Shown: in pieces, positions 27,186-64,000 of the stretch
How the letters are laid out: each line of letters starts with the position of its first letter
Position numbering within the stretch: position 1 is the first letter of the stretch
Origin: Phycomyces nitens
Lineage: Eukaryota > Mucoromycota > Mucoromycetes > Mucorales > Phycomycetaceae
Assembly: GCA_022702545.1 (NCBI GenBank)
Contig: JAHRBC010000002.1
Span: 3,844,001 to 3,908,000, forward strand
Length of the DNA stretch: 64,000 nucleotides
Direction of reading: 5' to 3'
The notes under the pieces: generated by a model
Told to the model about the DNA's origin: nothing
Databases searched by the model: none
The model's input: the letters and a program-made list of their open reading frames with translations, nothing else
Position numbers and translations under genes: made by a program

Positions 27186-30100
27186 ATGCCTCCCCAACAA
27201 CGCAAAGGAAAGAAAGGACCCGCCAAGGGATCCAAGGGTGCTCCTAACAAGGGAAAGGGAAAGGCAAAGCCAAGAGTTCCCTTTAAAGCCAACATTACCG
27301 ACGTCTTTGAGGCCGATGACGATGAACAGCGTTTGTCTCGTAAAGGCCACGATTTGGACGAAGTAGACGACTATGAATACAATGTTGGCGAGATCCAGGA
27401 TGAGGATGACGAAGAAATTGATTCTGATGAGGCATTTGATGAGTCTGACGATGAGAAGTTTGAGAGTTTCAAGTTCCACGGCTCCACAAAGGTAAATTGA
27501 GACAGGACCACAAAAGATGTATATATATATATATATATATATACTAACTTTCTTTACTACCAGGCCGATGAAAAGAAAAAGATGAAGAAGCCAAAGAACT
27601 ATAACATTGACGACGATTCTGAAGCCGAGAATGCTTCTGAGGAAGAAATCGATCTGAATGAATCTGACAACGACGACGAAGACGAAAGCAACTCTGAAGA
27701 CGGTGAAGACTATGTTGATCTCTCAGATATGCTCAACGATCCTGTCAGCAGTGAACATACAAAGACCGTAAAGGCCTTGATGCCTGTGGAGAGCAGCGAC
27801 GATGAAATGGACAACTTTGAGGATATGGATAATAGTGACGAAGATGCCATTGAAGATGCCAGCGAGGGTGCCAGTGAGGATGAAAATGATGAAAATGTCG
27901 TAACTTTCATTGACAGTCTGGAAAACAAGAAGCGCAAGAACGGCGAGAATGACGGTACCAACAAAAAGAAGAAGCATATTTCAGAACGCACTGAAGTCTA
28001 CCAAGAAAGCGAATTCAACTTGCTGGCACGCTCATCTGATTCACTCGATGGAAAGAAAAAGAAAATCGACATGAACGATTTGATGGGATCTTTCAGTAAC
28101 GAAGTTGGCTTTGAGTCAATGAGAAAGAGCTTGCTTGCTTTGGATGGCAAGGGAAAACATGCAACCAAGAGAGCACTTGATGCACCTTTGCCTAAACGTC
28201 TTCAGGATCGTATGGAGCGCGAGGCTGCTTACAAGGAAGCCAACAAGGAGATTGCCCGCTGGCAACCAACTGTCAAGAAGAATCGCGAAGCCGATCATCT
28301 TTCATTCCCCATGCAAGGTCCTGCTGTTGAAAAGATGTCGAGTGCAAATATGGCTAGCAAATTCAAGCCAGAAACCGACATGGAGAAGGAGATTGAAAAG
28401 GCACTGGAAGAAGCTGGCATGAAGGACGAGGAGCTCGAGGAATTTGAAGCTTTGAAGCTTAACAAGCTCTCTGTAGAAGAAGTAGAGAAGCGCCGTAACG
28501 AGCTGCGTTTGATGCGTGAACTGATGTTCCGCCATGAAATCAAGGCTAAGCGTCTCGGAAAAATCAAGAGCAAGAGTTACCGTAAGCTCCAGAGAAAGGA
28601 AAAGGCCAAGCTTGAACTCCAGATCAAGCAGATGGAGGAGGTTGAGCATGGTATTACCAATGACGATCAAGTCAAGGCTGCCATGGATCGTGCTGAGGAG
28701 CGCATGTCACTCAAGCATAAGAACACTGGTCAATGGGCTAAACGTGCTCTTGCCAGAGGTAACCAAGACGAAGGTACCCGTGAAGCTATTATGGATCAGT
28801 TGAGACGTGGTGAACAGCTCAAGCGTAAGGTCCAGGGTCGCGACTCTGACGAAGGCTCCGAAGAAGAAAGTGGAGAAGACGAAGACCTTGATGTTACTGA
28901 TAGAGAGGAGATTATGAGACAATTGGCCAAACTTGAGGATGCCCCCGAGAAGCCCGCAAAGGGCTTGATGACCATGAAGTTCATGCAAGAAGGAGAAAAG
29001 AGACAAAAGGATGCTACTGATGCCGCAATTGACTCTTTCAAAGAAGAATGGCTCAGTGATGAAAGTGGCGATGAAGAAAACGCAAAAGGTGAAAAGGAAG
29101 TCCCAACCCATTCTATTGTTGAGAATAACCCTGGCCGTATGGCATTTGGTGCTAAAAAGGTAAATTGAATGATAGGAAATCACGATTCTAACGATCTATT
29201 GTATTAGAATGATGAAAAGACAACCAAGACCACTAGTTCCTCAAAAGTCAATGTTGAATTGAATGAAGCTGGCCAGATCAAGAAAGTCTCACATTCTGCA
29301 GCTCACAACACTCGCACATCCGGACCAATTGACACAAAGGCTGTCAAGAAGAACGAGAGTCCACTAGCAGATCTTAATGACTTGACTGCTGCAAACCCTT
29401 GGCTCCAGCATGATACCTCTCGTCTGGGGAAGAGAGCTGTCAAGGCCAACAAAGCAAATGCCAGCAAGTCCGAAAATAAATCAGAACACAACATTGAAAA
29501 GATCAAAAAGTTACAAAAGAATACCAAAGCAGCAGAAGATGTGGAAGATGTCAAACTTGATCTGACCAAGACACTCACAATGACTGCAACCCCCACAAAA
29601 GCAAATAAGAAGCAAAAGATTTCCGCAACTGTCACAGCATCAAAAGCAGCAGCAGCGTCAGATAGCGAAGATGATGATGATGAAGAGGAGCGTGTCGAAT
29701 TCACCCAGCGTGAGCTTGTGGCACGGGCATTTGCTAATGACGATGTAGTTGCAGAATTCGAGGAAGAAAAGAAGAGAGTGATTGAGGAAGACGGTGACAA
29801 GGTAGAAGACCTCACATTACCGGGATGGGGTAGCTGGGGTGGTAAGGGTGTCAAGGCACCAAAGAAAAAGAAGGTCTTTACTCGTACAATCAAGGGTGTG
29901 TCTGCCAGCCAGAGAAAGGATAATAAGCTTACCCACGTCATTATTAACGAAAAGAAAAACAAAAAGGTTAGTTTAAAGTGTTGGAGTATTATCATAAACT
30001 GACATTTGTTTTATTAGGCCGAGAAATACCAAGTTACCCACGTACCCTTCCCCTTCCAGAACATGGAGCAATACGAGCGTTCGCTACGTGCTCCTGTTGG

Positions 30101-41002: not shown

Positions 41003-44000
41003 ATGTCCACCTCTACTTTCCCCGAGGGATGGTTTTTTATCAAAAACCAAAACAATGGCTACGTTTTAATGGTCGATAACGCCTCTAGCCAGCCCGGCGA
41101 GCACATTACAATTTCTGCTCTTCGCAACAAAGAATATGAGGCCCAACTCTGGCAGCATACCGAAGATGGTCGCTTGCGCAACAAAAAGAGTGGCCTTGTT
41201 TTGGACATCGCCAAGGGTAAGTTGTTGTTTGATTGCCTCTTGAGCCAAAAATCGAATTTTCAAATAATAAAGTCAATAAATAATAATAATATAATAATAA
41301 TATACTATAATAATAATATAATAATATAATAATATAATAATAAACAATAATAATAATAATGGGAAAGAATAATAAGCATTGGCACTGACGTGAAACAATG
41401 GTTTCTAGGCAATGCCAAAGTTGGTGCTGAGGTCGTACAACAGGCCGTCTCATCTGTCAAAGCAGACAAAAACTTCCAGTCCTATGGTGTCTCACCCCAA
41501 GGCCAGATCTTCCTTACCCACAAACCTACTCTTGTCTTGGGTATCAAGGAATCTTTCTTCTCCCGTCGTGAGGGACTTCATGTCCATCTCCAGTTGGCCG
41601 AGAAGCACGTCACGGACCACAAAGAGCAGAGATGGGACTTTGTGCAACCTGTGATTAGGCAGACCGCCAGCCAGGCTTCTCTGTCTGCAATCAAGCGTAC
41701 TGGCAGCACCAGCACTGTAGCCAGCGCTTCAGGCTCGGTCCGAAGCTCCAAAGTCGATATCCGTAAGTATTGTTTGTTTGTCATTGTAGACCTAACCTTT
41801 TGGTCCGTTCAATAGCTGCTCCTGCTGCTCCTGCTGCCACCAGCTCTGTGGTTACCCCTGTCCTCCAGGTGCCTGCCGGTACCTTCCCCACAACCTCTTT
41901 CTTCCTCAAGTCCATCTTCAGTGGTCTCCTCATCGGCTCTGAAGTCGCATCCGGACAGAGCCGCATTTCTCTTGATTCTCTCCGAAAGACCGAATTTGAA
42001 CGCCAGCTGTGGACTTACAATCCCCAGACCTCCCAGATTGTCAACACAAAGTCTGGATTTGTCTTGGCTGCCCAGGAACTCAAGGACGGTATCGATATTT
42101 TTCAGGTTTCCGCTGAAAAGGCCGTCCACAGTGAATGGATCATCAGCAACGTTGGCGAGCTGACTCTCAAACAGGCCCCCAACTGGGTTGCTGGTTTCAA
42201 AGACAGCTGGTTTGGTGCCACTCGCGAAGGTGCCCATCTCCACCTCCAGCGCAAATCGTCTGATGCAAAGCTCGCCCAGTATCAGAAGTTCATGATCACT
42301 CTGCCAATCTTCAAGAACACCACCAAGGAAGAGCGCGTTGGTGTCTTCCCTGAGGGCTGGTTCTTTGTCAAGAACCACTCCAACAACCTTGTCATTACTG
42401 TTCTCGAGAGTGGCAAACTTGCAGCCCAGGCTGTTGCTGTTAAGCTGGACATGTCCAACCACAGCCGCCAGCTCTGGAAGTACAAGGACGGAAATCTGGT
42501 CAACAAGGCTTCCAACCTTGTTCTCGACGTCAAAGGAGGTATGTGAACAGAGCCTTGCAAAACATTTTAATCACATTTATTATCTAGGATGCGTCGAGGT
42601 TGGCTCTACTCTTTGCCAGTACAAGGCTAAGAAGAAGGATGCCGAGAACCAGAACTGGGCCCTTGGCATTGATGGCACCATCCACTCTATTGCTGACAAG
42701 TCTCTTGTGATCGCAGTCGAAGAGGACACTGACAAGCAATCCAAGCTGTTCATGGCTCGCCGTTCCGAGTCCAACAGCTCTGTCCAGCGATGGAACTTTG
42801 TCTTGCCTGTCTTTAAGAAGAGAGAGGGTAATAATAGTTGTAGCTGACGTTGGTACCCCCCCCCCCAAAAAAAAAAGAAACTAATCATTTTGAATGTGCA
42901 CCATAGTTGCTGTTGCAGCTCCCATCAAGAAGACCATCACCCACACCTATACCCAGTATCCTTCCGGCTGGTTCTTCATCCGTTCTTTCTGTGCTGCATC
43001 CACTGCCGAGAAGCCCTTGGTTCTTACTGCTGATAAGAACAGCACCTCTCTTTTCTTGACCGAGATTAGCGGCACCCAGTGGGGTACCCAGTTGTGGACC
43101 TACTCCAACGGTGTCTTGGTCAACTTTGACACCCAGTTTGCTCTTGATATCAGTGGTATGTTTTCGATCTATACGCACGCGTACTATGATCACTAATTCC
43201 AAAATTGTCTCTCTAGCTATCCGCACTGCTGTCAAGGTGCAGCAATCCAAGCGTTCTGTCCACTCACTTACCCAGCGCTGGTACCTCTCTAGCGAGGGTT
43301 ATTTGATCCACGGCAGCAACTCTTCCTTTGCCCTTGTGCCAGTGGCCAAGGACAATGGTCCTCTTTCCATCGAACTCGCTGAATTTACCACCGTAACTTC
43401 TACCCAGCGATGGGGTCTTCTTTTGCCCAAGTTTGAGACACGCACCGGTGTACAGACTCTTATCAAGTGGTCTGTTGCCGAACTCAAGGAATGGCGCATG
43501 ACATCCAAGACTGTCCAACGCACTATTTCCCATGTTGCTCACTGGCCTTCCGAGTCATTCATCATTGGCAACGACGATGGAATGGCTCTTGTGCCTGTCA
43601 AGGAAGAGGCATTTGCGGCCATCATTGTTCAGAAGCTCGATGCCAACGACTGTGCCCGCTTCCAATGGATCTTCGCTGATGGATATCTTGTCCACAAATC
43701 CACCGGCCTTGTTTTGCATGCTACTGGTAAGTCCGCGCTTTCGGGAAAATTGGATCACTTTAGCTCATATTTTTTTTAATTTCACTAGATAACCTAGTTA
43801 ACGGCAGCCAATTGCAGCTTCGCAGCAAGCTTGTTGTCAATGAGTCCAGCGTCGATGAGCGCCAGATGTGGGTCGTCAAGACCGATGGCTCCATCTCCTC
43901 AGAGTCCCACCCAGCCCTTGGATTTGGTCTTCTCCAGCAGGGTGACCACTGGATTGTCCAGTTGGCTACTTCCTCCACAACCGAGCACTACTCATGGAGA

Positions 44001-47000
44001 ATGTTCTACGGAAAGTACACCACCTCGTACAGCGAGCACCACAAGCGTGAGATTATTACCATGATTAGCAAGGTCAGAATTGTCCTCACCATGCGCACCG
44101 AGAAGGAACGCATCAGTGCCGACAAGAAGTTGGTTACCGTCAGCTATGGTCTCTTCCCTCGCGGATGGTTCTACATTCGCTCCAAGCAAAATAGCTCTCT
44201 GGTTGTCACAACCATCAACCGCTCCAAGGGTGCCAAGATTGTTTTGGCCAAGATCGATTCTGCCATCTTCCGTCGCCAGTTGTGGCAATACCGCGATGAT
44301 GGATGTCTTGCAAACCTCGAGACCGACTATGTGATTGACGTTGCCGGTGGCTCCCTCAACAAGAACAGCAAGGTTATCCAGTGGTCCGAAAAGTTCTTTA
44401 AGAGCTACCGCAAGAACCAGCTCTGGGGTCTCTCAGTCGATGGTCATATCCACCCCAAGGTCCGTCCCAGCCTTGTCTTGGGTGCCGTCAAGGGTGAATC
44501 CGTCGAAGGTGCCGATCTCGAGTTGCAGGCTCGTGGTGCCTTGACCTATACCCACCAGCAGTTCAGCTTCGCCACTCCAGTCTTTGGACGTCGTGCTGAG
44601 GGTGGTGTTATCACCAAGGATACCTTTGTTGAAAGCGTCGGTGATGCATCCTTTGATGTGTCCAGCGCCGAACGCTACGAGAGCATTACCAAGCGTACTG
44701 TTATCCGTCGCTGGGGTCTCTTCCCTACCTCGGCCTTCTTTATTCGCTGTGCCTATGGTGCCAATAACTTTGCTCTGTCTGTCGAGAAGAAGTCCACTGA
44801 GATTGATGGAAAGCCTGTACACGATGTCTCACTCCGCCCAGTCGACTTTAAGGAGTACAAGTACTTCCTCTGGACCTACAAGGATGGTCACCTCATCAAC
44901 GTCCAGACCGGACTTGCTCTTGACTCCCAGGCTATCAAGGGTCAGCTCGTTGAAGACGGACTCACTGCATTGCTCCACGTCCGCGAAACAACTCTTAGCG
45001 AGAACCAGTTCTGGTCACTCACTGTTGATGGTGAAGTCCACCAGCGCTCCAACATGGGTCTTGTTGTCGGTGTGGCCAATGAATCTCGTGCCACTGTTGC
45101 AGGTGCTCAAATTGGTCTCCGCGAACTTCGCGTCAAGAAGATCGAGATCGATGGCAAGCAAGAGTTTGTCCTCCGTTCCAAGCAATGGTTGCGATGGACT
45201 TTCTCTACTCCTGTATATGGCAAGCGCTCAACAACCGTCACAACCACTGCCACAGCAGGTGCTGTTGCTATCAAGGAAGGAGACGATATCTTGGACCAGA
45301 TCTTTGAAGGTTTCCATGATGAAACTCTCACTTCCAAGGAGGTTGACGAATCCGACTCTGAAGACACCGATGTCGAGGAAGAGGAAGAAGAAGAAGAAGA
45401 GGAGGAGTACGAAGATGTCGAAGAGGAGCTCGAGCAGATTACTGCTGTCGAAGAGAGCGAAGATGTTATTGAAGACAAACCCCTTCCTATTACTCGTCAT
45501 GAAGCCATGGTCGGCGATGACTATGTTCCTACTGGTTTTGAAAAGGTTGTTCATTACACCACATACCGCGGAAGCTTCCCTCAGGGATACTTCTTTATCA
45601 AGAGCGGTTACCATGGTTATGTTCTCGATGTTCGTGGTGAAGCAAACCAAGGTGCTCAGATTGTATTGAGCCGCATCAGAACCACCGATTTCTCTAGCCA
45701 GCTCTGGACCATCCGCAACGGTGCCCTCATCAACCTCAAGGGTCAGAACTTTGCTCTCGCTGCTACAAAGGAGACTGACGAGGAGGAGAAGGCTTGCCTC
45801 ACTACTGTTTCCGAGACTCAAAAGTGGGTCTACAGCTCTGAAGGTCTTATTTACAACCAGTCCAAGCGTTCTTGGATCTTGACCATCAAGGAACTCCGTC
45901 GCTCCGAGACATACGAGTACATTGAGGTCTACATCCAAAAGACCGAGAAGAAGACCACTGAGGAAAGCAAGTGGCAAATCCTTGTTCCCGGTCTTATCCC
46001 TGCCGATCAGGAAGAATCGAATGTCAAGATTGTCGAAGGTGGCAAGGTTGCCGCTATCACCAGCTCTTCATCCGCAGTTCTTGCTTACAAGTGGCTCAAA
46101 GAGACATACGAGCAGAGAATCACTGCTGCCAACCAGTGGCCAAGCAGTGAACACTGGTTCTTTATTCGTAATGGTACTACTAACTACTTTTTAGGTGCAG
46201 GTCAAGATAAGGAACAGGTAATCCTTTCTCGTTTGGACCAGAATGTCGACTACAGACGTTTCCTCTGGGTGTATGTCAGCGGATACTTGATTAACTACAA
46301 GTACATGCTTCGCCTGGTTTTGACCAAGGGTAAATATATATATATATTACAATTTGTAAGCATGGCTAACATGATTTCATCAGAGCGCCGTTGGATCTTG
46401 TCTAGTGACAAGGAGTCTACCGATCAGACTTACGAGATTTCTGCTCATGGTTCTATCTCTGTCCGTACTGAGAAGGAGACTTACTACCTCCGCATCACTC
46501 AAACCGAGAATGACTATAGCGTGTCTTCTACTACTGAAGAGGTTGACACCAAGGGTTTCCAGTTGCACATTCCTGTCTATGCCGACAAGCAGGTTCAGAA
46601 ATCCGCCAATGTGTCCTTGACCACTGTTGTCAGATGGGCCCGCACTCAGCGCACCACTACAACTACTACAACCACCACCACTACCACAATTACCACTCGT
46701 CGCGGTATCTTCCCCAGTGAATGGTTCTTTGTCAAGGTCAAGCACGAGGGTCAAGACTACGCCTTGTCCGTAGAAAGTGACTCTACTGGTGCCAAGTTGG
46801 TCATCCGCAAGTTGTCTTTCAAGGACTTCAAGACCCAGCTCTGGACTCACAGAAATGGCCTGCTTATCAACTATGGCAGCAAGTTTGTCATTGATGTTCA
46901 AGGTAAGATTCAATAGTTCGTACATATTATCCACCATAAACTTTACTAATCTAATGCATCGATATTACAGACTCTATTGATAAGCATTCCCAGGTCATCC

Positions 47001-50000
47001 AAACCTCCCAGTCCAGCTCTAGCACTCAAAAGTGGCTCTTGACTGTTGATGGTGAGATCCAACTCGAAAGCTACCGCAATTTGATGTTGGGCTACACAAA
47101 CACCATTGAAGAGAACACCTCTGTTGTCTTGACTACCGACAAGGCCATCTCATGGACCTTCTCTGTCCCTGTGTTTGGTCGCAGATCTACCGCTGTAACA
47201 ACCTCCCAGACTCTTACCGAGGCAATTGAAAATGGTGCTCAGATCGAAAAGACCGAAGAGATCACTATCAAGACCCACGATGTCATGCAGCCTGCCGAGG
47301 ATGAAGACGATGAGTCCACCCTTCATCAGGTTCTCGAGGGTGCTGGTGTTGTTGCCGCTGTCGGAACTGTTGCAGCTGTTGCCACCGGTGTTGCTTCCAA
47401 CATTGCCTCTATTTTCCACCATTCTGATGCTGAAAAGATCCACACTGAAGAAAAGGAAGATAAGAAGACCCAGGTCACCAAGAAGCCTGTTACTCTCCGC
47501 ATCACTGGTCGTTCGTCTGTGGTTATCTTGAGAGAAACCAGTATCATTGTTCGTGCCTGGAAGATCACCTTCATTCGCCGTTTGAGACGTTGCACTACCA
47601 AGAAGGAGTTTACTCAGGTTATCGAGTCTTCTCGCAAGGAGCTCTATACCACTCTTGATAAGCACCGCTATGCTCACAGCACTGTCAAGAAGGAGTCCAA
47701 CGAATGGGAGGTTGCACTTGAGCAGGTCAAGGAACTCTACCGTGCCCGTGTCTTTGATTCGGTTTTGGATAAGCTCCAGACCGTCAAGGATGACGAAAAG
47801 ATCACCTTTGAGTCGCTCAACATTAAAGAGTCTCTCGAGAATGTCACTGTAGAGATTGATGAACACTATAAGCAAGCCACCAAGACCGAGGTCTCCGAGA
47901 CATCTGAGACCCAGCAGACCCAGATTGTTCAGGCAAAGGCAACCAAGCAGGTGCTTGTCACCGTCGATACCATCAAGGTCACCGTCCGCTACTGGTTCAT
48001 TGAGCTGTACCGCACTATCAAGATTGCCAAGGAGGGAGGTGCATCTGATGAGGATATTGAGACTGTGATCAAGGACGCCAAGAAGAACCTTGATGTCCAG
48101 CTCACTGAGATCCGTACTTCTGTCTCGAGCAATGTCGAAAAGTCTCATGTTTCCTCCTCCAAGACTACCTCAATTGAGCACTCTGTAGAGACTGCCATTG
48201 AGCGTACTCAGACTCTTGTTAGCGAGCAGGTCAAGACTATCAAGCACACCACAACCGAAGAGTCTTGGCTGAAGGTCACAGAAGAGACCGAGGAGAAGCT
48301 TGTTACCGAACTCAACAACTGCCAGTCTGCCATTACCCAGGAGGTCATTGTTGATCATGAGGAGAAGGACAAGGAGACAGTCTCGGTTACCGTTACTGAC
48401 AATGTTGCCCAGGAAACCGTCTCTCGCACTCTTACCGAGACCAAAACCCATCTCGACACCTGGTTCAAGCAGGTCACACATGATGTTACTTCTGAATTGG
48501 AGGAAGGCGATGTCGAAGATGCTCTTGTATTGGTTGAGGCTGCCAAGGTCAACATCACCACCACCATTGATGAGGCCAAATTGGTTGTTCGCACCTACCA
48601 TGCCCAGCTTACCTACCTTTCTGTTGCCGAGCGTCGCCGTGTGGAGGCCTCTTTGGAGCACATCAAGCTGTCCATTCTTGCCAGCATTTCGTACTTTAAA
48701 AAGTCTGTCCGTTCCACCACCGCAACCAAGGAGGACATCCGTCGCTATGTGACCTATTCCTTTGGCAGTGTCGCTCAAAAGACTGTCCAGAATGAATTGG
48801 ACTCGGTTGTTGTCAAGGTTACCCATGCCACCAATGTTCACACCGAGACCAAGAAGCAGGAGCAGGCCAAGATCGAGGCTCAGATCGTCGAAAGCACCCA
48901 AGAGGTTAAGCCCGAGTCAAGACCTGTTTCGTTTGTTACCGCAGCAACTGCTGCTGCTGTGGCTACTGCAATTGCTGGTGCAACTGTCAACCATCATCGT
49001 AACCACAAGGAGAACGAAGACTCTACCGAGGTTGTCACCGATCATACTTATGACTCCCTCATCTTTGTGACCGAGGACGTCAAGTACACCGTTTCTCACT
49101 GGCTCACTCGCTTGACCACCAAGATTGAGGAGCGTGCTAAGCAGGGTGGAAGTGATGTCGAGGAAGATATTTCCGTGATTGTGACTCAGTCCCGTGAAGA
49201 GCTTGTACTCGCTCTTGAGAATGCTAAGCGTTCATCCTCTTCTCAGGTTACTTTCCACGAGACTATCAAGTCCGTTCGCACCTTGGCCTGGACCCAGTCC
49301 TACTACATCAGAGCAATTGGTATTCAGCTTGCAAAGAACCCTCAACCTGCAACTGAGATCCAGCTCAAGGCTGTCGCCGAGAGCACCATTAAGCAGGTCG
49401 AGACCCTTGTCACCAACTACCGCTCAACAATTGTCTCTGAGCAGCGTATCAGTGAGATTACTAGCAGTGTCAAGGCTGGACAGTACAAGGCTGTTGACTA
49501 CTCTACAATTGGTGGTCTCCCTATCGATAAGGCCAGAGCCTACGTATCTGTTGCCGTTCAGGATGTGAGCACAACCGTCAACGATTGGTTCACAAGATGG
49601 ACTCGCACAGTCTCTGAGCGCATCTCCAAGGGTGGCGACAATGTCCAGGAAGATGTTGATGTGTTGATCAAGGAGGGTCGCACTCATGTCACCAAGATCA
49701 TTACCGAGGCTCACACATCCATTGAAAAGTACTCTTCTACCAAGACTGAGCTTACCGAGAGCGAGACTATCTTGATCAAGGAGGCTCAGGAACAAATCAA
49801 GACTACCCTTACTTCTATCGAACAGAGTGTCTTGACCCAAGTTACCGAGGTTGAAAAGATTGATACCAGCGTAACTGATGTCAGCGAAACCTTCAAGACC
49901 ATTGTCGAGCGCACCAAGCAGACTATTGAGGGTACCTTGGAGAAGTCCGAGACTACTATCCGTAAGCACTTGGAAACTGTTTCTGAATCCACCATCAATC

Positions 50001-53000
50001 ACGAAGCTCATGAGACTGAAGACCACGAGGAAGAGAGCACAAATATCATCAAGGAGACCTCAAAGAACGTCCTTGGATACCTTTCTGGTGTCACTGACCG
50101 TATCAAGGACAGTCTCACAGATGGAAAGGAGCAAACCGAAGAGGAGATTAAGGCTAGCCACGAGACTGTTGAGACTTTGTGTGAGGAGGCCAAGTCCAAG
50201 GTTCCTGTTGAAGAACATGCCACAATCGACTCAATCAAGAACTCTGCCAAGGACCGTCTTAATGAGATTCAAGTCATTGCTGTTTCTCACAAAGATGATC
50301 ACAAGGTTGCTGCCGAGAAGCTTAACAAGGTTACCAAGGATACCAAGCAGGAGATTGAGGGTCACCATACTTCAGTCAAGTCTGATACCAAGACAAAGAA
50401 AGAAGAGGAGCACCACGCTAATGTGGCCGAGAAGGTTTTGGCTACCACTGCCGCTGCCGCTGCTGGTACCAGTGTAGCTGTGGCTATTGCTAAGAAGCTC
50501 AAGGTCAAGAAGGACAAGGCTGCCGAGGAGAAGAAGACTACTACAGTTGACAATACTGAAGTTTCCGAGGTTTCCGAGGTTGTCAAGATCACTGAGCACA
50601 CCAAGATTACCAAGGTTACAGAAGAGCAGGTCGTCGCTGTTGAAGATGTCAAGGTTAAGTTCACCTCCTGGTTGACTCAGTTGACTACCACTGTTACCAA
50701 GCGTACCCAGGAGACCGAGGTTTCTGATGAAGAGATCCGTATTCTTGTCGAGAAGTCTACCAAGGAGTTCCAAAAGGTGATCAAGACTGCCAAGAAGAAC
50801 AAGTCTCTCCAGACCCACCAGAAGCAGACACTTGTTTGGATTGAGCAGACCGCAATTGCTCAGACTACTCGCATTCAAGAAATTGTTTCCAAGAAGGAAA
50901 ACATTGCTGTCAAACTTGATGCCTTGACCACCTCCACCACCCAGGAGGTTAGCTTTGCTGTCGAGAAGTGCAAGTACAAGCCTACTATTGGACAAACCAT
51001 CGGTGTCACTGTCAAGGAGATCCGTGAGAAGGAGGAAGCCTTGATCGATGTCAAGAGCACTGTGACTGAGATTATCGAGACCACCAAGGAGACCCTCACC
51101 ACTTACTTCACCGAGTTGACTGAGCGTATCAAGGAGCGTGTCCAGACTGGCGGCGAAAATGTTCGTCAGGATGTTGCTATCTTGATCCAAGAAGCTCGTT
51201 CTGAAATCACCGTCCAGACTACCAAGGCTGAAACCGAGGCCAAGGAGAAGCTGACAGTATGTGAGACCAAGACATACGGTTCCACCGTTTCCGTTTCTTC
51301 GCTTGTCAGCGTTGCTCTTCTTGAAATCAACGGTGTTATTCGCCAGACCGAGAAAACCCTGACAAAGACAGTTGACCGTGTTGAAACTTGCGTTGCTTTG
51401 GTTAGCGAGGATGAAGACTCTTCTTCTGTTATCGAGCAGTTGGAAACCATTCAGACTGAGACAAAGGTCACTATTCACGAAGATATTGAGACTACAAAGA
51501 AGCAGACCATCTCCACTGTAACAGAGACCACTGACTCTACAAAGAAGAGTGGATCTGTTGAGACTGTCCAGGATGTTCGTGTTGTTGTAAGCACTTGGTT
51601 GCGTTCTTTGACCGAAAAGGTTTCTACTCGTGCAAAGATTGGCGGCGAGACTGCCGAGAAGGATATCAAGACCATTGTCGCCAAGGAGACTGCCTTGATC
51701 TATGGCACCCTTGAAGTCTCAAGACGCAAGTTCACCGAGACTGTCACCACTGAGGAGGAAGAAACCATTCGCACTACCTGGAGCTCTATTAAGACCATTG
51801 TTTCCCAGAGTGCCACTCAGATCAAGACTATTGGTATCAAGGCTGTTGAGACTTCTTCAGTGACTGGTGGTCTGGAAGAGATGCACACCTGTGTCTCTAC
51901 TCATGACCAAAAGTTGAACAAGACTCTTGACCATTGTGAGTCCAAGGTCACTGTCAAGGCCAAGAAGACAGAGACCAAGAAGTGCGAAAAGGTAAGAGAT
52001 TATTCAAAGCTACCTAATATTCCCCATACTTATCTTATAATTTATAGAAGGCTGACACCAAGGTCAAGGTTGAGGAGAAATACGAGCTTTCTCACTATGC
52101 TTGGGACACCAAGACAACCATCAACACCTGGTTCAAGAAGCTGATCCATGATGTTTCAACCCGTGCTAAGAAGGGCGGTGATTCTTGCACCGAAGACATT
52201 GAAGTCATCTTTGTCAAGGCTACCAAGGAGATCACCGAGACTTTGACCATCATTAGCTCTCAATCTACCCAGGTTTTCAAGGATCAATCGACTGCACGCC
52301 AATTTGAATCCACAATCACATGGACCCGTGGTATGGTTATTCAGGGTGCCAACCAGGTTAAGGCTGTCGGTCTTAACTCTGCTGCCGCCAAGTCCAAGAC
52401 CGGAGGTGCTGAGCAAATGACTCCTTTGGTTAACGCTATCGAGACCCAGATCAACGTGGAGTTGGGCCGTTACAAGTTGGAGACCCGTGCTACCAAGCTC
52501 AAGGAAAACAAGAACTTGATTTCCTCAGGAAAGAAAGCCACTCACAAGCGCAAGGAGCACAACGAGAAGGCCATGAAGACCGTTTCTGAGCTTATCGAAG
52601 AATCCCAGATTGTCATTGTTGGATGGTTAGGCCACTTGATTGAGCAGGTTACCGAACGCCGTCAACAAGGTGGTGATAATGTTGAAGAGGACATCAAAGA
52701 GTTGATTTCCGAAGGTCGTCAGCAGCTTACTGAGACTATCACTCGTACCCAGTCAACTATCATCTCCAAGGTTAGATCAAGCTCTGATTATACCAAGGAT
52801 GAGTCGTTTGTTACTATTCAGGAACGTATCCAAAAGAGCCTCCGTATTGTCGAAACCACCGTGTCTACCAAGGTTACCGAAGTCCAAGACATTGCCATTT
52901 ACAGTTCTGAAGAAGAGACCAAGGAGAAGCTCTCTGCCTTGTTGCACAGTACTCAGACCGATGTTATCCACGTTCTTGACCAGTCTCGCAAGGAGTCCAT

Positions 53001-56000
53001 TGCCATCCTTGAGACCGAGACCACCCAATCTACTGCTGCTGTTAGAATCGTTGATACTGTTGACAGTGTTAAGAAGACAATCACTAGCTGGTATCTTCGC
53101 TTGACAACCTCCATTGCTGAGGTCTCTGAGACCAATGCTGAAGATAAGGAAGCAAAGATCACTGCTCTTGTCGAGGAAGCCAACACCGAGATCACTCGCA
53201 TCATTACCGAAGCCAAGGACAAGGTCACCGAAGATTCCACCGTCACAAACCACACTGAAGATGTTGTTGCTGCCCTTACCAAGGTCCAGTCTTCGGTTAA
53301 TGTTCAGGTTGAGGAAATCAAGAAGGTCGGAATTGCCTCCTCTACTGTTGAGGAGGCCAAGACCACTCTCACTCGCTTGGTAACCAAGTCCCAGGAGAAG
53401 ATTGATAACGTTCTTAGCAAGACCAGTGCTGCTGTCTTGGGTGCCACTGCCGGTGTCATTGTTGGCGGTGCCCATGTTGTTCATGAAGAGGGCAAATGGG
53501 TTGTTGATGTTCACGAGAACGCCGATGTCTTCTCTGAATGGTTTGAGCATGTTACCATTACCCTTCGCGAAACTGTCGAAAAGGGCGGTGACGATGTGAC
53601 CGACAATGTCGAGAAGGCTACCAAGGAAGCCGAGCAAGAGATCACTGAGATCGTCAATGCTGCCCGCACTGACTTTTACAAGACTTTGACCGAAGCTCAC
53701 TTGGATGAGGCATCTCTCAAGCATGCCCGTGAATATTATGAGACCAATTTGGAGACAGTCAAGACCTCCGTCACAAAGAACATTGTCGAAGCCAAGCGCA
53801 TCGCTATCAACGCCCACGCAACTGGCCAGGTTCATCTCCTTGAAGAGAAGTTTGACCATCTTATCGAAGTCTCCAAGACCAAGATTAAGACCGATATTGG
53901 TCATGATGTTGTAGTTAGCGAGACTCAGAACAAGGGTTCTAGCGAAAACACTACTCAAATCACCTTTACTCAGGAAGAAGATGTCGATGTCGTTGGTTCT
54001 GAGGATGTTATCATTGGTCAGAACGAAAAGATCGAGACAGCTGAAAAAACCACAACTACCAAGGGTAAGTAGATTAGAGCATTAATACATCTTTGATATT
54101 TATTTGCCATTATTATATAGTTACCGAGAAGTCTACTGAGATTGAAAAGACCGTGAAGGAAACCAAGGATACCAAGGCCTTTGTTTCTGGATGGTTGTCT
54201 ACTCTTGTGACAAAGGTAACACAGCGTGTCCAGCAAGGTGGTGACAATGTAAAGGAAGACACTGCTATCATCATCAAGAAGGCCGAGGAAGAAGCCGTTA
54301 AAGTGATCGAGACTACAACAACCAATGTCAGCACAACAAAGGATACCAAAGAGTCGATCGAGAGCAAGAAAACTTTGTTGGAGTCATTGAAGGAAGTCAA
54401 GAAGGCCGTTACTACCCACGCAAACGCTCTTGTCACTGTTGTAGAAGACATCACGTCATCCACCGACTCCACTACCGAGCAGGTTGACCTCATCGAAAAG
54501 GCTTCTGAGACTAGCCACCAACAGGTTCTCGAGAAGCTTACAACTCTTGAAACGTCTACAACAAAGCTTTCTGAATGCGAGAAGACCACAAAGACCGCAA
54601 CTGGTGCCTTCATTGCCGTTGAAGCCGAAAAGGTCGATACCCAAAAGGTTGAGACCCAAAAGGTTGAAAACGAGAAGTCGTTGTTGGACAACTTATCCAT
54701 GGAAAACGTTGTTGCTGGAGCCTTGGCCATTGGTACCACAATTGCAGTTGCCAGTGGCATTTCAAAGTCCCACGATGATGAAAAGGTTACAAAGGTTACT
54801 GACACCAAGCAGACTGTTTCTACCTACGAATCTGCCGAGACAGTCATTGAGAGCACAAGAACCGAGATTACAAAGTGGTTCAACTCATTGACAACCCAAG
54901 TTATCACTACCTCCGAAACAAAGAAGACTGAAGAAGTTTCAATTACAGTCCAAAGATACCGCAAGGACTTGACTGTAATCGTTGAGAAGGCAAGAATTGA
55001 GGGTGTCAAGCAATGTACTACCAAGAAAGAGCGCGAGGACTATCTTGCTCAATTGACCATCATTGAGTCATTTGCTTCGACTCAAACAGTCCAGATCGAA
55101 GAAGTTGCAATCAATGCTATCAAGACTGACACCAATGTCAAGACCGAGCTTGAGACAGTAGTACAGACAACCACCAAGAAAATAAACGAAGGTTTTGAGC
55201 AGCTCAAGTCGCTCATCACCATTACTACCGTTGCTCACACACAGGTGGTAGCCGAAAAGACCAAGAAGGCCGCTTCTGCTGTCGAAGCCAAGCGTGTTGC
55301 TGCCACCAGCTGGTTCTCTTCACTCACTGACCGCATCAACTCTCGCATCCAGGAGGGTGGTGACAATGTCAAGGAGGACATTACCAAGATTACCGAGAAG
55401 GCTGAGGAGGAGATCACCACTGTCTTGAAGGAGGAAGACGAGGAGGATGACGAGACTGTCAAGGGATCTGTTGGCACCGCTTTGGTTTCCATCAAGGACT
55501 CCATCGCTGCTCAGTTGACCCAGGTCAAGAACGTTATTACCGAGACCACCGATACTTCTGCTCTCCAAGAGAAGTTCACCGAGGTTTCCGAGAAGACCAA
55601 GCAGGAAATCGACACTACCTTTACCACCGTTACCGAGAAGGTTAAGACTGATGGTAAGTTGCTAATTCTTTATATAAAATATATTTTACATAATACAATT
55701 GCTGACATTACCAATTTTAGTCAAACGTACCGAGAACGAAAAGGTCACAGTAAAGACAGATAAGACCGAGGTCGTAGACAGTGTCGTTTTGGATACTACC
55801 AAGAAGGCTACAGAGACCGTTGAAAACTGGTACAGCAGCTTGAAGACCAAGCTTTCTACACTCGTTGATCGTGACAGTGAAGAGGCCAAGGTTGAAGCCG
55901 AGGTTATTATTGCCGAGGCTGAGGTTGAGCTTAAGGAGAAGATGGACGTTCTCAAGGAGACTTCCAAGACCAATACTACAACTGAATCGACGGAACATAT

Positions 56001-59000
56001 CGATTCGTACTTTGGACAGCTCACTAACAGTGTAAAGAACCAACTGACCGCTGTAAAGACTGCAGTTTCCGAGAATGCTCTCCAAGACAAGACCACATTT
56101 GAAGAATCCTTGACCAAGACCGAGACTAAATTGCAAGAAGACATTGCTTCCCACACCGAGGTTGTCAAAACCGAATCGAAGAAGCATAGTATCGGAGAAA
56201 CAATTGGCAAGGCCATCTTGGGTTCCACTCTTGTTGCCGGTGTAACAGCTGCCGTTGTTAAAAACCAAAACGACAAGAAGGTTTCCAACTCTAAGGACAC
56301 ACTTGTCACATACCAGACTGCCGATTCTGTGATCGAGAAGACCCGAACTGAGATTACCAAGCGTTTCACGACTATGACTACTCAAGTCATCACTACTTCT
56401 CGTACCAAGAAAACCGAGGAAGTTACTATTGTTGTCGAGAGTTACCGCAAGGAGCTTACCGTCATTATCGAGCAGGCTAGAACTGAAGGTGTTAAGCACT
56501 GCACAACCAAGAAGGATCGTGAAGAGTACCTTGCTCAGCTCGCTATCATTGAGAAGACCACATCCACTCAGACTGTTGAAGTTGAGCATGTCGCTATTCA
56601 AGCTATTGAAAGTGACACTGATGTCAAGAGTCAGCTCGAGACATTGGTTAAGTCCACTACACAGAAGATTAACGAGCATTTCGACGAACTCAAGTCCCGT
56701 GTTACATTTACTTCTGTTGTTCATGCAGAGGTTATTGCTGAGAAGACCAAGAAGGCCGCCTCTGTTGTCGAAGCCAAGCGTGTTGCCGCCACAAGCTGGT
56801 TCTCTTCACTCACTGACCGCATCAACTCTCGCATCCAGGAGGGTGGTGACAATGTCAAGGAGGACATTACCAAGATTACCGAGAAGGCTGAGGAGGAGAT
56901 CCACACTGTCTTGAAGGAGGATGACGAGGAGGATGACGAGACTGTCAAGGGATCTGTTGGCACTGCTTTGGTTTCTATCAAGGACTCCATCGCTGCTCAG
57001 TTGACCCAGGTCAAGAACGTCATCACTGAGACCACCGATACTTCTGCTCTCCAAGAGAAGTTCACCGAGGTTTCCGAGAAGACCAAGCAGGAGATCGACA
57101 CTACCTTTACTACTGTTACTGATAAAGTGAAGGAAGAAGGTAATTGTCTATACAGCATTTTTTATTAAAAATAATTCGTCGTAATAACACTGCTTTTTGT
57201 AGTTAACCGTACTGAGAAGAACAAGGTTACAATTCAGGTTGACGAAAACACTGTAGTTGATTCTACTGTAGTCGACACTACCAAGAAAGCTACTGAAACC
57301 GTTCAAAGCTGGTACAGCGACTTGAAGACCAAGCTTTCTACACTCGTTGATCGTGACAGTGAAGAGGCCAAGGTTGAAGCCGAGGTTATTATTGCCAAGG
57401 CTGAGGTTGATCTGAAGGAGAAGATGGACGTTCTCAAGGAGACTTCCAAGACCAATACTACAACTGAGTCCACTGAGCATATCGATTCATACTTTGGACA
57501 GCTCACTAACAGTGTGAAGAATCAGTTGACCGCTGTCAAGACTGCAGTTTCCGAGAATGCTCTCCAAGACAAGACCACATTTGAAGAATCCTTGACCAAG
57601 ACCGAGACCAAGCTCGAAGAAGATATTGCTTCCCACACCGAGATTGTTAAGGAGGAGTCAAAGAAGCGTTCGATTGGTGAGACAATTAGCCGTGCTGTAT
57701 TTGGATCGGCTACCGTTGTTGCTGGTGCCATTGGTTTGTCGAAGGTTAATGAGCAGAAGGAAAATGTCAAAGAGCAAGTTGTCGTCTTCGAGACTACTGA
57801 GACAGTCATTGAGAATACTAGAACTGAAATTACCAAGTGGTTCTCTACCATGACTACCCAAGTTATCACCACATCTGAGACCAAGAAAACCCAAGAAGTT
57901 ACTGTTGTTGTCGAGGAGTACCGCAAGGAGCTCGACGTAATTGTCAAGAAAGCCAGAACCGAAGGCGTAAAGCATTGTACAACCAAGAAGGAGCGTGAAG
58001 AGTACCTTGCCCAGTTGACAATTATCGAGTCAGTCGCTTCTTCGCAGACCGTAGAAGTCGAACAAGTCGTCATTGAAGCAATTGAGTCAAACACCGATGT
58101 CAAGACAAAGATCGAAGAATTGGTGAAGACAAGTACCGAAAAGATCAACAATGGATTCGAGGAATTGAAGTCTCGTATTACATTCTCCTCAGTTACTCAT
58201 GCTGAAGAAGTTGTTGAGAAGACCAAGAAGGCCGCTTCTGCTGTTGAAGCCAAGCGCGTCGCTGCCACTAGCTGGTTCTCTTCCCTTACCGACCGTATCA
58301 ACACTCGCATCCAGGAAGGTGGAGACAATGTTAAGGAGGACATTACCAAGATTACCGAGAAGGCTGAAGAGGAGATCAGCACTGTTTTGAAGGAGGAAGA
58401 CGAGGAGGATGACGAGACTGTCAAGGGATCTGTTGGCACCGCTTTGGTTTCTATCAAGGACTCCATCGCTGCTCAATTGACCCAGGTCAAGAACGTTATC
58501 ACCGAGACCACCGATACTTCTGCTCTCCAAGAGAAGTTCACCAAGGTTTCCGAGAAGACCAAGCAGGAGATCGATACCACCTTCACCACTGTTACTGACA
58601 AGGTCCAAAACGATGGTAAGTAATTGGAATACTTTATTCTATTTGCAACATTTTTAACATTAATATATTATAGTCAAGCGCACTGAGAAGGAGAAGTTCA
58701 CAGTCAAGGCTGTTGAGACTGCTGTTGTTGATACTACCAACGAGGCAAATGAGACAGTAAAGAATTGGTATAGCAATTTGACCACAAAGCTGTCTACTTT
58801 GGTTGGAAAAGATACCGAAGAGTCCAAGGCTGAGGCTGACGTTATTATTGCTGAGGCCGAAGTTGAGCTGAAGGAAAAGATTAACACACTCAAGGAGACT
58901 ACCAAGACCGAGTCCAAGACCGAAAACACTGAACACATCGATTCTTATTTTGCCAAAATCACAAACAGTGCAAAGGACCAGTTGACTGCTGTCAAGACTG

Positions 59001-62000
59001 CTGTGACCGAAAACGTATTCCAGGACAAGACCACTTTCGATGAGTCCATTAAAAAGAACGAGGTCAAGCTTGAGGAGGATATTACTTCTCATGCAGAGGT
59101 CGTAAAGGAAGATGCGAAGAAGCACAGTATCTCAGAGACTCTAGGAAAGGTTTTGCTTGGTTCCACTATTGTTGCAGCTGGTGTTGTTGGCGCTATCGCT
59201 TTGAACAAGAAGCATGATGAGAAGAAGGCCGCTGAGATCAAGAAGCAAAAGGCTACCGAAACCAAGGAGGTTATCACCTTTGAAACTACCGAAACAGTAA
59301 TTGAGAACACAAGAACCGAAATTACTAGATGGTTCTCGACAATGACAACCCAAGTCGTGACGAAGTCTGAGACAAAGAAGACCAGCGATGTTACTGTTAC
59401 TGTCAAGCAATACCGCAAGGAGTTGTCTGTCATTGTAGAGCGTGCTCGTGTAGAGGGTGTGAAGCACTGCACTACAAAGAAGGAACGCAAGGAATACTTG
59501 GATCAATTGGTTATCATTGAGCGCCTTGCCGCATCTCAAACTACTGAGGTTGAGAAGGTTGCCATCCAAGCAATTGAGGAAGACACCGATGTGAAGTCTA
59601 AGATCGAAACTCTTGTCAAGACCACCACTGAGAAGATCAACGAACACTTCGATGAGCTCAAGTCTGCCATCACCTTTACTTCAGTTGTTCATGCCGAGGA
59701 AGTTGTTGAGAAGACCAAGAAGGCCGCTTCTGCTGTTGAAGCCAAGCGCGTCGCTGCCACTAGCTGGTTCTCTTCCCTTACCGACCGTATCAACACTCGC
59801 ATCCAGGAGGGTGGTGACAATGTCAAGGAGGACATTACCAAGATTACCGAGAAGGCTGAAGAGGAGATCAGCACTGTCTTGAAGGAGGAAGACGAGGAGG
59901 AAGACGAGACTGTCAAGGGATCTGTTGGAACCGCTTTGGTTTCTATCAAAGACTCCATCGCTGCTCAATTGACCCAGGTCAAGAACGTCATTACCGAGAC
60001 CACCGATACTTCTGCTCTCCAAGAGAAGTTCACCAAGGTTTCCGAGAAGACCAAGCAGGAGATCGATACCACCTTCACCACTGTTACTGACAAGGTCCAA
60101 AACGATGGTAAGTACTTTGAATATTTTATTCTATTTGTAATATTTATTAACGTTAATCTATTATAGTCAAGCGCACTGAGAAGGAGAAGTTCACAGTCAA
60201 GGCTGTTGAGACCGCTGTTGTCGATACCACCAAGGAAGCTTCTGAGACCGTTCAGAACTGGTACAGCAACCTGACCACCAAGCTGTCTACTCTCGTCGGT
60301 AACGACTCTGAGGAGGCAAAGGCTGAGGCCCAGGTTATCATTGCCGAAGCCGAGGTCGAATTGAAGGAGAAGATCGAAGTTCTTAAGGAGACTTCCAAGA
60401 CTGAGTCCAAGACCGAGAGCAACGATCATTTGGATTCGTACTTCAGCAAGATCACTGATACAGTCAAGAACCAATTGACCGCTGTCAAGACTGCTGTCGC
60501 AGAGAACGCTTTCCAGGATAAGACTACTTTCGAGGAGTCTGTTAAGAAGACTGAGACCAAGTTGCAGGAAGATATCACTACTGAATCTGAAGTTGTCAAG
60601 ACCGAGGCCAAGACCAGCATTGGTGAGACCCTTAGCCGTGCCATCTTTGGTTCCGCTGCCGCTGTCGCTGGAACCATTGGCTTGTCCAAGTTGACCAAGG
60701 ATAAGAAGACTACTGAGGAAGTTGTTACTTTTGAGACTACCGAGACCGTCATCGAGAACACTAGAACTGAGTTGACACAGTGGTTTACCACTATGACTAC
60801 CCAGGTCGTGACCAAGTCGGAGACAAAGAGAACAGAGGATGTAACAATCGTAGTCAAGAACTACCGTAAGGAGCTGACTGTTATTGTCGAGCGCGCTCGA
60901 GTTGAAGGTGTGAAGCACTGCACAACCAAGAAGGAACGCAAGGAGTACTTGGCCCAGCTTGCTACAATTGAGCATGTCGCTTCTACCCAAACATTCGAAG
61001 TCGAAAAGGTTGCCATTCAGGCAATTGAGGAAGACACCGATGTGAAGTCTAAGATTGAGACTCTTGTCAAGACCACCACTGAGAAGATTAACGAGCGTTT
61101 CGATGAGCTCAAGTCTGCCATTACCTTTACTTCAGTTGTTCACGCCGAGGAAGTCGTAGAGAAGACCAAGAAGGCCGCTTCTGCTGTTGAAGCCAAGCGC
61201 GTCGCTGCTACTAGCTGGTTCTCTTCCCTTACCGACCGTATCAACACTCGCATCCAGGAAGGTGGTGACAATGTCAAGGAGGACATTACCAAGATTACCG
61301 AGAAGGCTGAAGAGGAGATCAGCACTGTCTTGAAGGAGGAAGACGAGGAGGAAGACGAGACTGTCAAGGGATCTGTTGGCACCGCTTTGGTTTCCATCAA
61401 GGACTCCATCGCTGCTCAGTTGACTCAGGTCAAGAACGTCATCACTGAAACCACCGATACTTCTGCTCTCCAAGAGAAGTTCACCAAGGTTTCCGAGAAG
61501 ACCAAGCAGGAGATCGATACCACCTTCACCACTGTTACTGACAAGGTCCAAAACGATGGTAAGTACTTTGAATATTTTATTCTATTTGTAATATTTATTA
61601 ACGTTAATCTATTATAGTCAAGCGCACTGAGAAGGAGAAGTTCACAGTCAAGGCTGTTGAGACTGCCGTTGTCGATACCACCAAGGAAGCTTCTGAGACC
61701 GTTCAGAACTGGTACAGCAACCTGACCACCAAGCTGTCTACTCTCGTCGGTAACGACTCTGAGGAGGCAAAGGCCGAGGCCCAGGTTATCATTGCCGAAG
61801 CCGAGGTTGAATTGAAGGAGAAGATTGAAGTTCTCAAGGAGACTTCCAAGACTGAGTCCAAGACCGAAAGCAACGAGCATTTGGATTCGTACTTCAGCAA
61901 GATCACTGATACAGTCAAGAACCAATTGACCGCTGTCAAGACTGCTGTCGCAGAGAACGCTTTCCAGGATAAGACTACTTTCGAGGAGTCTGTTAAGAAG

Positions 62001-64000
62001 ACTGAGACCAAGTTGCAGGAAGATATCACTACTGAATCTGAAGTTGTCAAGACCGAGGCCAAGACCAGCATTGGTGAGACCCTTAGCCGTGCCATCTTTG
62101 GTTCCGCTGCCGCTGTCGCTGGAACCATTGGCTTGTCCAAGTTGACCAAGGATAAGACTACTACCGAGGAAGTTGTCACTTTCGAGACCACCGAAACTGT
62201 CATCGACAACACCAGAACTGAGATTAGCAACTGGTTTACAAAAATGACCAGCCAAGTGATCACAAAGTCGGAGACTAAGAAGACAGAAGACGTTACCGTA
62301 GTTGTCGAAAACTATCGTAAAGAGTTGACTGTTATCGTTGAGCGCGCTAGAGTTGAAGGTGTTAAGCATTGCAATTCGAAGCAAGAACGCGAGCAATATC
62401 TGGCGCAGTTGACTGTTATTGAGTCTGTTGCTACTACACAGACTTTACAGGTTGAACATGTTGTTATCAAGGCCATTGAAGAGGATGTTGATGTTAAATC
62501 CCAGCTCGAGTCGTTGATTGTAACAAGCACAGAAAAGATTAACGAAGGTTTTGAGAAGATCAAGTCTCAAGTGAAGTTTAGCTCTGTTGTTCATGCTGAG
62601 GAAGTTGTTGAGAAGACCAAGAAGGCCGCTTCTGCTGTTGAAGCCAAGCGTGTTGCTGCCACAAGCTGGTTCTCTTCCCTTACCGACCGCATCAACACTC
62701 GCATCCAGGAAGGTGGTGACAATGTCAAGGAGGACATTACCAAGATTACCGAGAAGGCTGAAGAGGAGATCAGCACTGTCTTGAAGGAGGAAGACGAGGA
62801 GGAAGACGAGACTGTCAAGGGATCTGTTGGCACCGCTTTGGTTTCCATCAAGGACTCCATCGCTGCTCAGTTGACTCAGGTCAAGAACGTCATCACTGAA
62901 ACCACCGATACCACTGCTCTCCAAGAGAAGTTCACCAAGGTTTCCGAGAAGACCAAGCAGGAGATCGATACCACCTTCACCACTGTTACTGACAAGGTCC
63001 AAAACGATGGTAAGTACTTTGAATATTTTATTCTATTTGTAATATTTATTAACATTAATATATTATAGTCAAGCGCACTGAGAAGGAGAAGTTCACAGTC
63101 AAGGCTGTTGAGACCGCCGTTGTCGATACCACCAAGGAAGCATCTGAGACCGTTCAGAACTGGTACAGCAACCTGACCACCAAGCTGTCTACTCTCGTCG
63201 GTAACGACTCTGAGGAGGCAAAGGCTGAGGCCCAGGTTATCATTGCCGAAGCCGAGGTCGAATTGAAGGAGAAGATCGAAGTTCTCAAGGAGACTTCCAA
63301 GACTGAGTCCAAGACCGAGAGCAACGAGCATTTGGATTCGTACTTCAGCAAGATCACTGATACTGTCAAGAACCAATTGACCGCTGTCAAGACTGCTGTC
63401 GCAGATAATGCTTTCCAGGATCAAACTGTCTTTGAAGAGTCCGTAAAGAAGACCGAGACCAAATTGCAGCAAGATATCACCACTGAATCCGAAGTTGTTA
63501 AAACTGAGGCTAAAAAGCAGAGTCTTTCCGAGACTCTTGGAAAAGTTGTTCTGGGATCGGCTGTTGTAGCTGCGGGTATTTTTGGTGCTGTGTCTTTGAA
63601 CAAGAAGCATGATGAGAAGAAGGCTGCTGAGATCAAGAAGCAAAAGGCTACCGAAACAAAGGAGGTCATCACGTTTGAAACTACCGAAACAGTAATCGAA
63701 AACACAAGAACCGAGATTACTAGATGGTTCTCGACAATGACAACCCAAGTCGTGACGAAGTCTGAGACAAAGAAGACCAGCGATGTTACTGTTACTGTCA
63801 AGCAATACCGCAAGGAGTTGTCTGTCATTGTAGAGCGTGCTCGTGTAGAGGGTGTGAAGCACTGCACTACAAAGAAGGAACGCAAGGAATACTTGGATCA
63901 ATTGGTTATCATTGAGCGCCTTGCCGCATCTCAAACTACTGAGGTTGAGAAGGTTGCCATCCAAGCAATTGAGGAAGACACCGATGTGAAGTCTAAGATC
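41003..64000 (+). CDS. giant Gellin-like protein, 3' end outside the window
   Basis: Seventeen exons: 41003..41216, 41409..41762, 41816..42538, 42588..42827, 42907..43155, 43217..43726, 43789..46329, 46384..46902, 46971..51991, 52048..54064, 54121..55653, 55721..57139, 57203..58615, 58674..60107, 60167..61558, 61618..63009, 63069..>64000. These total 7,301 codons with no stop. Ten beta-trefoil domains, each opening with an FPxGWFFI-like strand, match the number of Gll domains described for Gellin, the Mucoromycota protein whose loss causes uncontrolled bleeding of wounded hyphae. A helical region follows with Trp-containing modules, Gly/Ala-rich hydrophobic segments and tandem exon repeats. 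There is no signal peptide, so it is probably cytoplasmic. AAG dominates for Lys and codons ending in C or G are favoured, suggesting high expression. Whether described Gellins share this long helical tail I cannot tell. Confidence 0.88.
41018..47185 (+). other. array of ten Gll-type beta-trefoil domains
   Basis: Approximate domain starts are 41018, 41861, 42336, 42955, 43541, 44143, 44713, 45568, 46135 and 46699. Each has an opening FP.GWFF(I/V)-like strand, a QLW strand, an LVLDV-like strand, a Q.W strand, and closes with a W.F..PVF-like strand. Domains 5 and 9 have altered openings (HWPSESF, QWPSSEHWFF). An acidic Glu/Asp linker (about 45340-45480) separates domains 7 and 8. The count of ten is by eye. 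Confidence 0.85.
41278..41360 (+). repeat. TAATAA-rich microsatellite in intron 1
   Basis: TAA/ATA repeats fill the middle of the 192-nt first intron (41217-41408) of the giant gene. The tract is seen directly and likely explains why this intron is longer than its neighbours. Confidence 0.9.
47186..54064 (+). other. first part of helical region of the giant protein
   Basis: Degenerate helical modules of roughly 110-180 residues share a W(F/L)..LT..(V/I)..R pattern, then GG(D/S)(N/D)V.EDI and an Ala/Glu/Lys-rich helix. Clear copies start near 47980, 49080, 49570, 51080, 51570, 52100, 52600 and 53520. Four Gly/Ala-rich hydrophobic stretches lie at about 47333, 48924, 50432 and 53419. This part has only one intron (51992-52047, phase 0), and its copies have diverged more than those after 54 kb. 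Confidence 0.75.
54121..64000 (+). repeat. tandem array of ~1.4-kb one-exon repeat units
   Basis: Exons starting at 54121, 55721, 57203, 58674, 60167, 61618 and 63069 are copies of one unit of about 1,390-1,530 nt, the last cut by the window edge. Each starts with a V(K/T/N).TE-like segment and holds three Trp modules (NWYS, WF..MT, SWFSSLTDRI). A hydrophobic Gly/Ala segment lies about one third of the way in, and a KHCTTKKER-like block follows. Each complete unit ends with TTVT(D/E)KV before the intron. All introns are phase 1, 56-68 nt. Units at 60167 and 61618 are both exactly 1,392 nt. Confidence 0.93.

Follow-up and report, generated by a model that had tools for sequence, protein, structure and literature searches.

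The stretch analyzed here, a window of 64,000 nucleotides (nt) from the Phycomyces nitens genome (C4:3844001-3908000; the genome comprises 49 Mb in 11 contigs), raises the question of whether ten beta-trefoil domains resembling those of Gellins are truly fused to a helical tail of several thousand residues, and what such a protein would do. We found that the gene in the window, gene A, and a paralogue elsewhere in the genome, gene B, each encode trefoils, a tail roughly 9,000 residues long and a haloacid dehalogenase (HAD)-like domain in one frame, and that both are under purifying selection. When 46 kb of overlapping and downstream DNA were joined to the window (0 mismatches, no N) and splice sites were picked from the genomic sequence alone, gene A ended at a stop codon at window-equivalent position 77209 (C4:3921209), with a probable polyadenylation signal 3' of it. 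The model comprises 24 exons with 34,704 nt of coding sequence and predicts a protein of 11,567 amino acids (aa) and about 1.29 MDa. All 23 introns are of the GT..AG type, are 49-192 nt long and contain an in-frame stop or have a length not divisible by three. An earlier sequence-only reading of the window had proposed a start codon at 41003, ten trefoils and a single open frame, all of which are borne out by the model, and a protein of more than 7,300 residues ending outside the window, which agrees with the 7,319 residues that we count inside it. Its figure of more than 5,500 residues after the trefoils within the window was slightly high, the same arithmetic on the gene model giving 5,445. 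Taken as a whole, that reading is partly supported: the analysis favors Gll-like trefoils, the fusion and a helical tail, but the reading did not include the HAD-like cap, which lies beyond the window, the paralogue, whose tail is rich in proline, glutamate, valine and lysine (PEVK-like), or the possibility that Gellins commonly carry such a fusion.

The fusion of trefoils and tail rests on long exons that cross the junction. The 5,021-nt exon said earlier to hold the last part of trefoil 10 together with the tail start was found exactly as described, except that it is exon 8 in the present model and not exon 9. It stays open for 1,673 codons, whereas the longest frame in 200 dinucleotide shuffles had 251, which rules out a chance open frame. 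Trefoil 10 and the tail start also share one exon in gene B, where exon 7 (C1:6869596-6894714) extends over 25,119 nt, or 8,372 codons, whereas the longest frame in 40 shuffles had 304. Because this single exon links trefoil 10 to the tail, the fusion is not a splicing guess, in agreement with the earlier claim, and the alternative that a ten-trefoil Gellin and a separate neighboring tail gene were misread as one is excluded in gene B. For the locus in general we rejected this two-gene alternative as extremely improbable, given that the trefoil frame of gene A has no stop before 52144, that exon 8 is open across the junction, that the exon of gene B spans it and that the junction can be aligned between the two genes. 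A bacterial promoter and terminator scan over the junction, which is not meaningful for a eukaryote, returned 0 promoter-like and two terminator-like signals, with about one of each in shuffles.

The trefoils of gene A start at aa 6, 213, 367, 528, 703, 886, 1075, 1360, 1547, and 1738, and the last ends at about aa 1874. Their start motifs were picked by eye and then placed on the proteins, which yielded ten each in A and B. The Pfam family Ricin_B_lectin was detected above its cut-off in two scanned pieces, the frames of exon 7 (E = 1.5e-24) and exon 3 (E = 4e-8). Small ricin-B trefoil genes also occur at C9:891006-891311 (-), C4:887116-887409 (+), and C4:3237841-3238065 (+; known from the match alone), and may be related to the ancestor from which the ten-domain head arose. 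Trefoil 1 matched PDB chain 6LCI, named 'mdaA-1', with 226 bits and an E-value of 2e-66, whereas the second-best chain reached 5e-5. From its name and its authorship, we take 6LCI to be a Gellin domain; no paper naming 6LCI was found in the literature searched. Together with the Pfam result, the 6LCI match supports the proposal that the trefoils are Gll-like, to the extent that 6LCI does represent a Gellin. The Gellins of Mucorales reportedly have ten related beta-trefoil Gll domains, as does the protein described here, and these trefoils are said to unfold in fast flow after wounding and stack into sheets; Gellins are reportedly required for wounds to gel. In gene A, the trefoils share their frame with a tail of some 9,000 residues and a HAD-like cap, both of which the published full-length proteins may have as well.

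Two alternatives bear on the identity of the heads. One is that the protein has no part in wounding and serves as a giant structural element or cargo scaffold, its trefoils binding sugar or protein. Ricin-B-type trefoils often bind sugars, and small trefoil genes exist elsewhere in the same genome, both of which fit a scaffold; the presence of ten domains and the similarity to 6LCI indicate the Gellin family instead, provided that 6LCI is a Gellin domain, and we consider the scaffold rather improbable. The second alternative concerns novelty and not mechanism: published Gellins may already carry this tail and cap, so that the window gene would be an ordinary orthologue. This is a serious possibility, which gains from the count of exactly ten trefoils and the strong likeness of trefoil 1 to 6LCI, and also from the two paralogues with the same order of parts in one genome, since these suggest that the layout is old. 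On the other side, the passages on gellins in PMC12712441, which uses that word and cites Nguyen et al. (2021, Curr Biol, PMID 33186551), mention no tail. Among the literature matches listed, including passages of PMC12712441 and PMC10023807 and the references of PMC11842775, no Gellin tail is described.

Behind the trefoils, 57 copies of a module of about 139 aa tile residues 2121-11273 of protein A and cover 7,852 of these 9,153 residues. An iterated profile built from one seed module detected 37 domains in A and B in the first round and settled at 71, of which 57 lie in A and 14 in B, all with at least 57.6 bits; these scores are not independent because A and B themselves served to train the profile. 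The median pairwise identity of the 71 modules is 20%. For one module, with 27 of the 31 window modules aligned, AlphaFold placed helices at residues 2-37, 42-60, 70-100, and 104-132, with a predicted local distance difference test score (pLDDT) of 79.2 and a predicted template modeling score (pTM) of 0.67. The model of a three-module exon (6 of the 14 repeat exons aligned) consists of twelve long helices (pLDDT 71.3, pTM 0.34). AlphaFold thus predicts four helices per module, in line with the helical tail proposed from the sequence.

Foldseek searches of the PDB with the single module yielded nothing at E ≤ 0.001, the highest ranks being taken by designed bundles and the tail of vinculin, and with the three-module model vinculin, alpha-catenin, and talin led weakly (E = 6e-3 to 0.1). 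Like the tail of A, the talin rod, vinculin, and alpha-catenin are tandem alpha-helical bundles, and they are the nearest, weak, structural neighbors of the three-module model; they differ in that the module profile reveals no sequence relation to them and in that the tail of A has 57 bundles. On these models, we read the resemblance to vinculin and talin as a likeness of build and not as kinship. The module profile retrieved 16 PDB sequences at E ≤ 1, with no spectrin, talin, vinculin or alpha-catenin relative among them; the first was apolipoprotein A-IV, a weak match (E = 0.004). When 27 modules were scanned singly against Pfam, 11 families appeared with a best E-value of 2e-4, and the first module matched Apolipoprotein with 19.9 bits compared to a cut-off of 90. 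No tail match above the Pfam cut-off was obtained for the frames of exons 8 and 9, one repeat exon and the last exon, and NCBIfam returned 0 families for the exon 8 frame and one repeat exon. In prokaryotes, none of 132 pattern matches proved to be a relative by tblastn, a search that used one of the 14 repeat exons as query and detects close relatives only.

The modules of A are interspersed with hydrophobic segments. Using a 19-residue Kyte-Doolittle window with a cut-off of 1.4 (counts without shuffle control), we detected 19 stretches in A, some of them overlapping and one inside a module. These correspond to 13 separate segments rich in alanine, glycine, and valine (A/G/V), mostly located outside modules and in one case at the trefoil-tail border; six further segments of this kind lie just below the cut-off, which brings the total to about 19, or roughly one per three modules. 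Because the A/G/V-rich linkers recur at this spacing, a membrane-collecting role of the tail linkers appears plausible from their sequence. Alternatively, the tail could be mainly a membrane- or organelle-binding array, in which the amphipathic helices of the modules, together with the hydrophobic linkers, would cover or tether vesicles and any extension would be a side effect. The spacing of the linkers fits such an array, as do the low-scoring Apolipoprotein matches of 9 of the 27 modules and the position of apolipoprotein A-IV at the head of the weak PDB matches. Yet gene B, in which the same scan found five stretches (two in trefoils, three in the tail), has a tail of about equal length with just these three hydrophobic segments above the cut-off and a composition dominated by valine, glutamate, threonine, lysine, and proline; we regard a tail devoted mainly to membranes as unlikely.

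Gene B comprises 9 exons with 33,249 nt of coding sequence and encodes 11,082 aa, with its parts in the same order as in A; the genome thus contains at least two genes of such architecture. A and B are 44-59% identical in the individual trefoils and 46% identical in the HAD-like domain; within the tail, identity is 36% at the beginning and 40% at the end. In the regions compared, the proportion of nonsynonymous differences (pN) is 0.27-0.44 versus 0.60-0.73 for synonymous differences (pS). Outside the modules, residues 2521-10020 of B consist of valine (21.9%), glutamate (19.3%), threonine (18.7%), lysine (11.3%), isoleucine (8.5%), and proline (5.1%), so that proline, glutamate, valine, and lysine make up 58%, or 76% with threonine. 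The strongest repeat period of the B tail is 1,047 residues. A and B thus have their heads, border, tail ends, and cap in common, whereas the central part of the tail has diverged in kind. The part of the B tail outside the modules can be likened to the PEVK region of titin by composition alone, from which it differs in having just 5% proline and much threonine and valine; titin itself is far larger than the A or B proteins.

In gene A, the modules are for the most part encoded by an array of short-intron exons, numbers 10-23, separated by introns of 53-67 nt. All 14 exons are in phase 1 at both ends, a symmetry also known from titin, and therefore any of them can by rule be skipped without a change of frame. 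Exons 16 and 18 are 100.0% identical, and the pair 15-16 is 99.86% identical to the pair 17-18 over 2,944 nt including introns. The ratio of nonsynonymous to synonymous substitution rates (dN/dS) was 0.11-0.26 in all 28 pairs formed by eight tail exons chosen from the 14. In a sample of seven of the 14 exons (six for the first module), mean pS was 0.227 for the third module (21 pairs), 0.706 for the second (21 pairs), and 0.603 for the first (15 pairs). Constraint is unlikely to be the sole cause of the near-uniform third module, as its synonymous difference is low too; the low pS therefore indicates gene conversion or recent exchange.

The last approximately 270 residues of A match the NCBIfam family haloacid dehalogenase type II (TIGR01428) with an E-value of 1.4e-10 as part of a longer piece and of 9.1e-12 when the cap is searched alone, over profile positions 2-194 of 197. 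Solved epoxide hydrolases are matched as well (E = 4e-8). While both genes thus show a near-whole-profile match to the haloacid dehalogenase type II and cis-epoxysuccinate hydrolase enzymes (TIGR01428; 8WNH, 8WBK, 3UMC), the caps score 45.4 and 43.2 bits, far below the curated cut-off of 125.4 bits, and the Pfam HAD model gave an E-value of 0.083 for A, below its cut-off, and no match for B. In alignments of these distant sequences the N-terminal Asp, presumably the nucleophile, is retained. At a second position, a conserved Asp of the solved enzymes, which we take to be catalytic, is replaced by Val in A (aligned to 8WNH) and in B (aligned to 8WBK); chains 8WBM and 8WBN have Ala and Asn at this position. 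It is our view, held with moderate confidence, that the HAD-like cap has no catalytic activity.

The architecture described above is read from the genome sequence; mechanics, gelation, and the role in wounding are what we infer from it. We somewhat favor the interpretation that A and B are giant wound-gelation proteins of the Gellin family, with trefoil heads carried on a long extensible and partly hydrophobic tether. In the intact hypha, the protein would be a soluble or organelle-associated chain. Wounding would cause fast flow, in which the trefoils would unfold and stack, and the tail would act as an extensible tether, the roughly 57 four-helix bundles of A opening sequentially like talin or spectrin repeats and the tail of B being an already extended PEVK-like chain. 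The approximately 19 hydrophobic linkers of A might retain membranes in the clot and the HAD-like domain might serve as a binding or dimer cap instead of an enzyme, so that the outcome would be a hypha-spanning gel that absorbs load without tearing. With assumed per-unit lengths, the tail of A would measure roughly 0.3 micrometer when folded (57 bundles of about 5 nm) and 3.4 micrometers when drawn out (9,153 residues of 0.37 nm).

Several points weigh against a wound-gelling protein on a spring-like tether. The pTM of the three-module model is just 0.34, neither model has a Foldseek match at E ≤ 0.001, and the three-module model reaches a template modeling score of only about 0.2 to vinculin and talin, which may lead the ranking simply because no other tandem bundles are as common in the PDB. 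The weak Apolipoprotein matches of a third of the scanned modules (9 of 27) mean that lipid binding fits as well as a spring, and the A/G/V linker of the three-module model, predicted with pLDDT below 50, could equally be membrane-spanning, disordered or part of a bundle. The assignment of 6LCI to the Gellins is itself inferred, and the exon copy number depends on the assembly because some of the repeat exons are near-identical.

A bolder version of the wound-gelation interpretation, which we offer tentatively, holds that P. nitens has two megadalton flow-sensitive clotting proteins with common heads and cap and two different springs, 57 bundles in A and a PEVK-like chain in B. The length of A would be tunable by skipping any of its 14 exons, the array would grow and be homogenized by recent tandem duplication and conversion, and titin-like elasticity would have evolved independently in a kingdom that has no muscle. 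If the wound-gelation interpretation is right, a flow switch, a tether of up to about 3.4 micrometers and membrane anchors would be joined in one clotting molecule of a coenocytic fungus, which would provide a testable account of very fast gel formation, pressure holding and organelle trapping, a natural design for flow-hardening materials, and an example of titin-like evolution outside muscle in which two natural springs can be compared. The coordinates of the features are shown in Table 1.

Table 1. Features of genes A and B; positions refer to the window unless a contig is given.
Feature	Coordinates	Strand	Remarks
Gene A, part in window	41003..64000	+	Exons 1-15 and most of exon 16, of 24; gene model
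Ten beta-trefoil (Gll-like) domains	41018..47188	+	Start motifs by eye, Pfam Ricin_B_lectin, 6LCI match
Exon 8	46971..51991	+	5,021 nt; end of trefoil 10, hydrophobic segment, tail modules 1-8
A/G/V-rich hydrophobic segment directly after trefoil 10	47327..47416	+	aa 1921-1950
Tail modules 1-31 of 57, wholly in window	47927..63511	+	Profile search; module 32 cut by window end
Exon 9	52048..54064	+	Modules 9-12; module 13 spans the following intron
Start of the repeat array of exons 10-23 (14 exons, phase 1 at both ends, three modules per exon)	54121..64000	+	Exons 10-15 and part of exon 16 in window
Gene B	C1:6866928-6900817	-	Loci L016-L020; ricin-B and HAD matches about 31 kb apart in own-genome family searches

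The surroundings of gene A contain further genes. Upstream, positions 6681-10775 (+) of the window hold frames of an RSN1/PHM7-family membrane protein (Pfam run on 8022-8876), which we take to be CSC1/TMEM63-like. A protein kinase exon (Pkinase, E = 5e-21), presumably similar to GSK3, is located at 21594-22154 (+), and a Utp14 gene occupies 27501-29999 (+; E = 1e-110 on 27501-29162). Downstream of gene A, locus L005 includes an open frame at window-equivalent positions 103669-105999 (-) that by its appearance may encode reverse transcriptase/RNase H of a Ty3/gypsy-type element.

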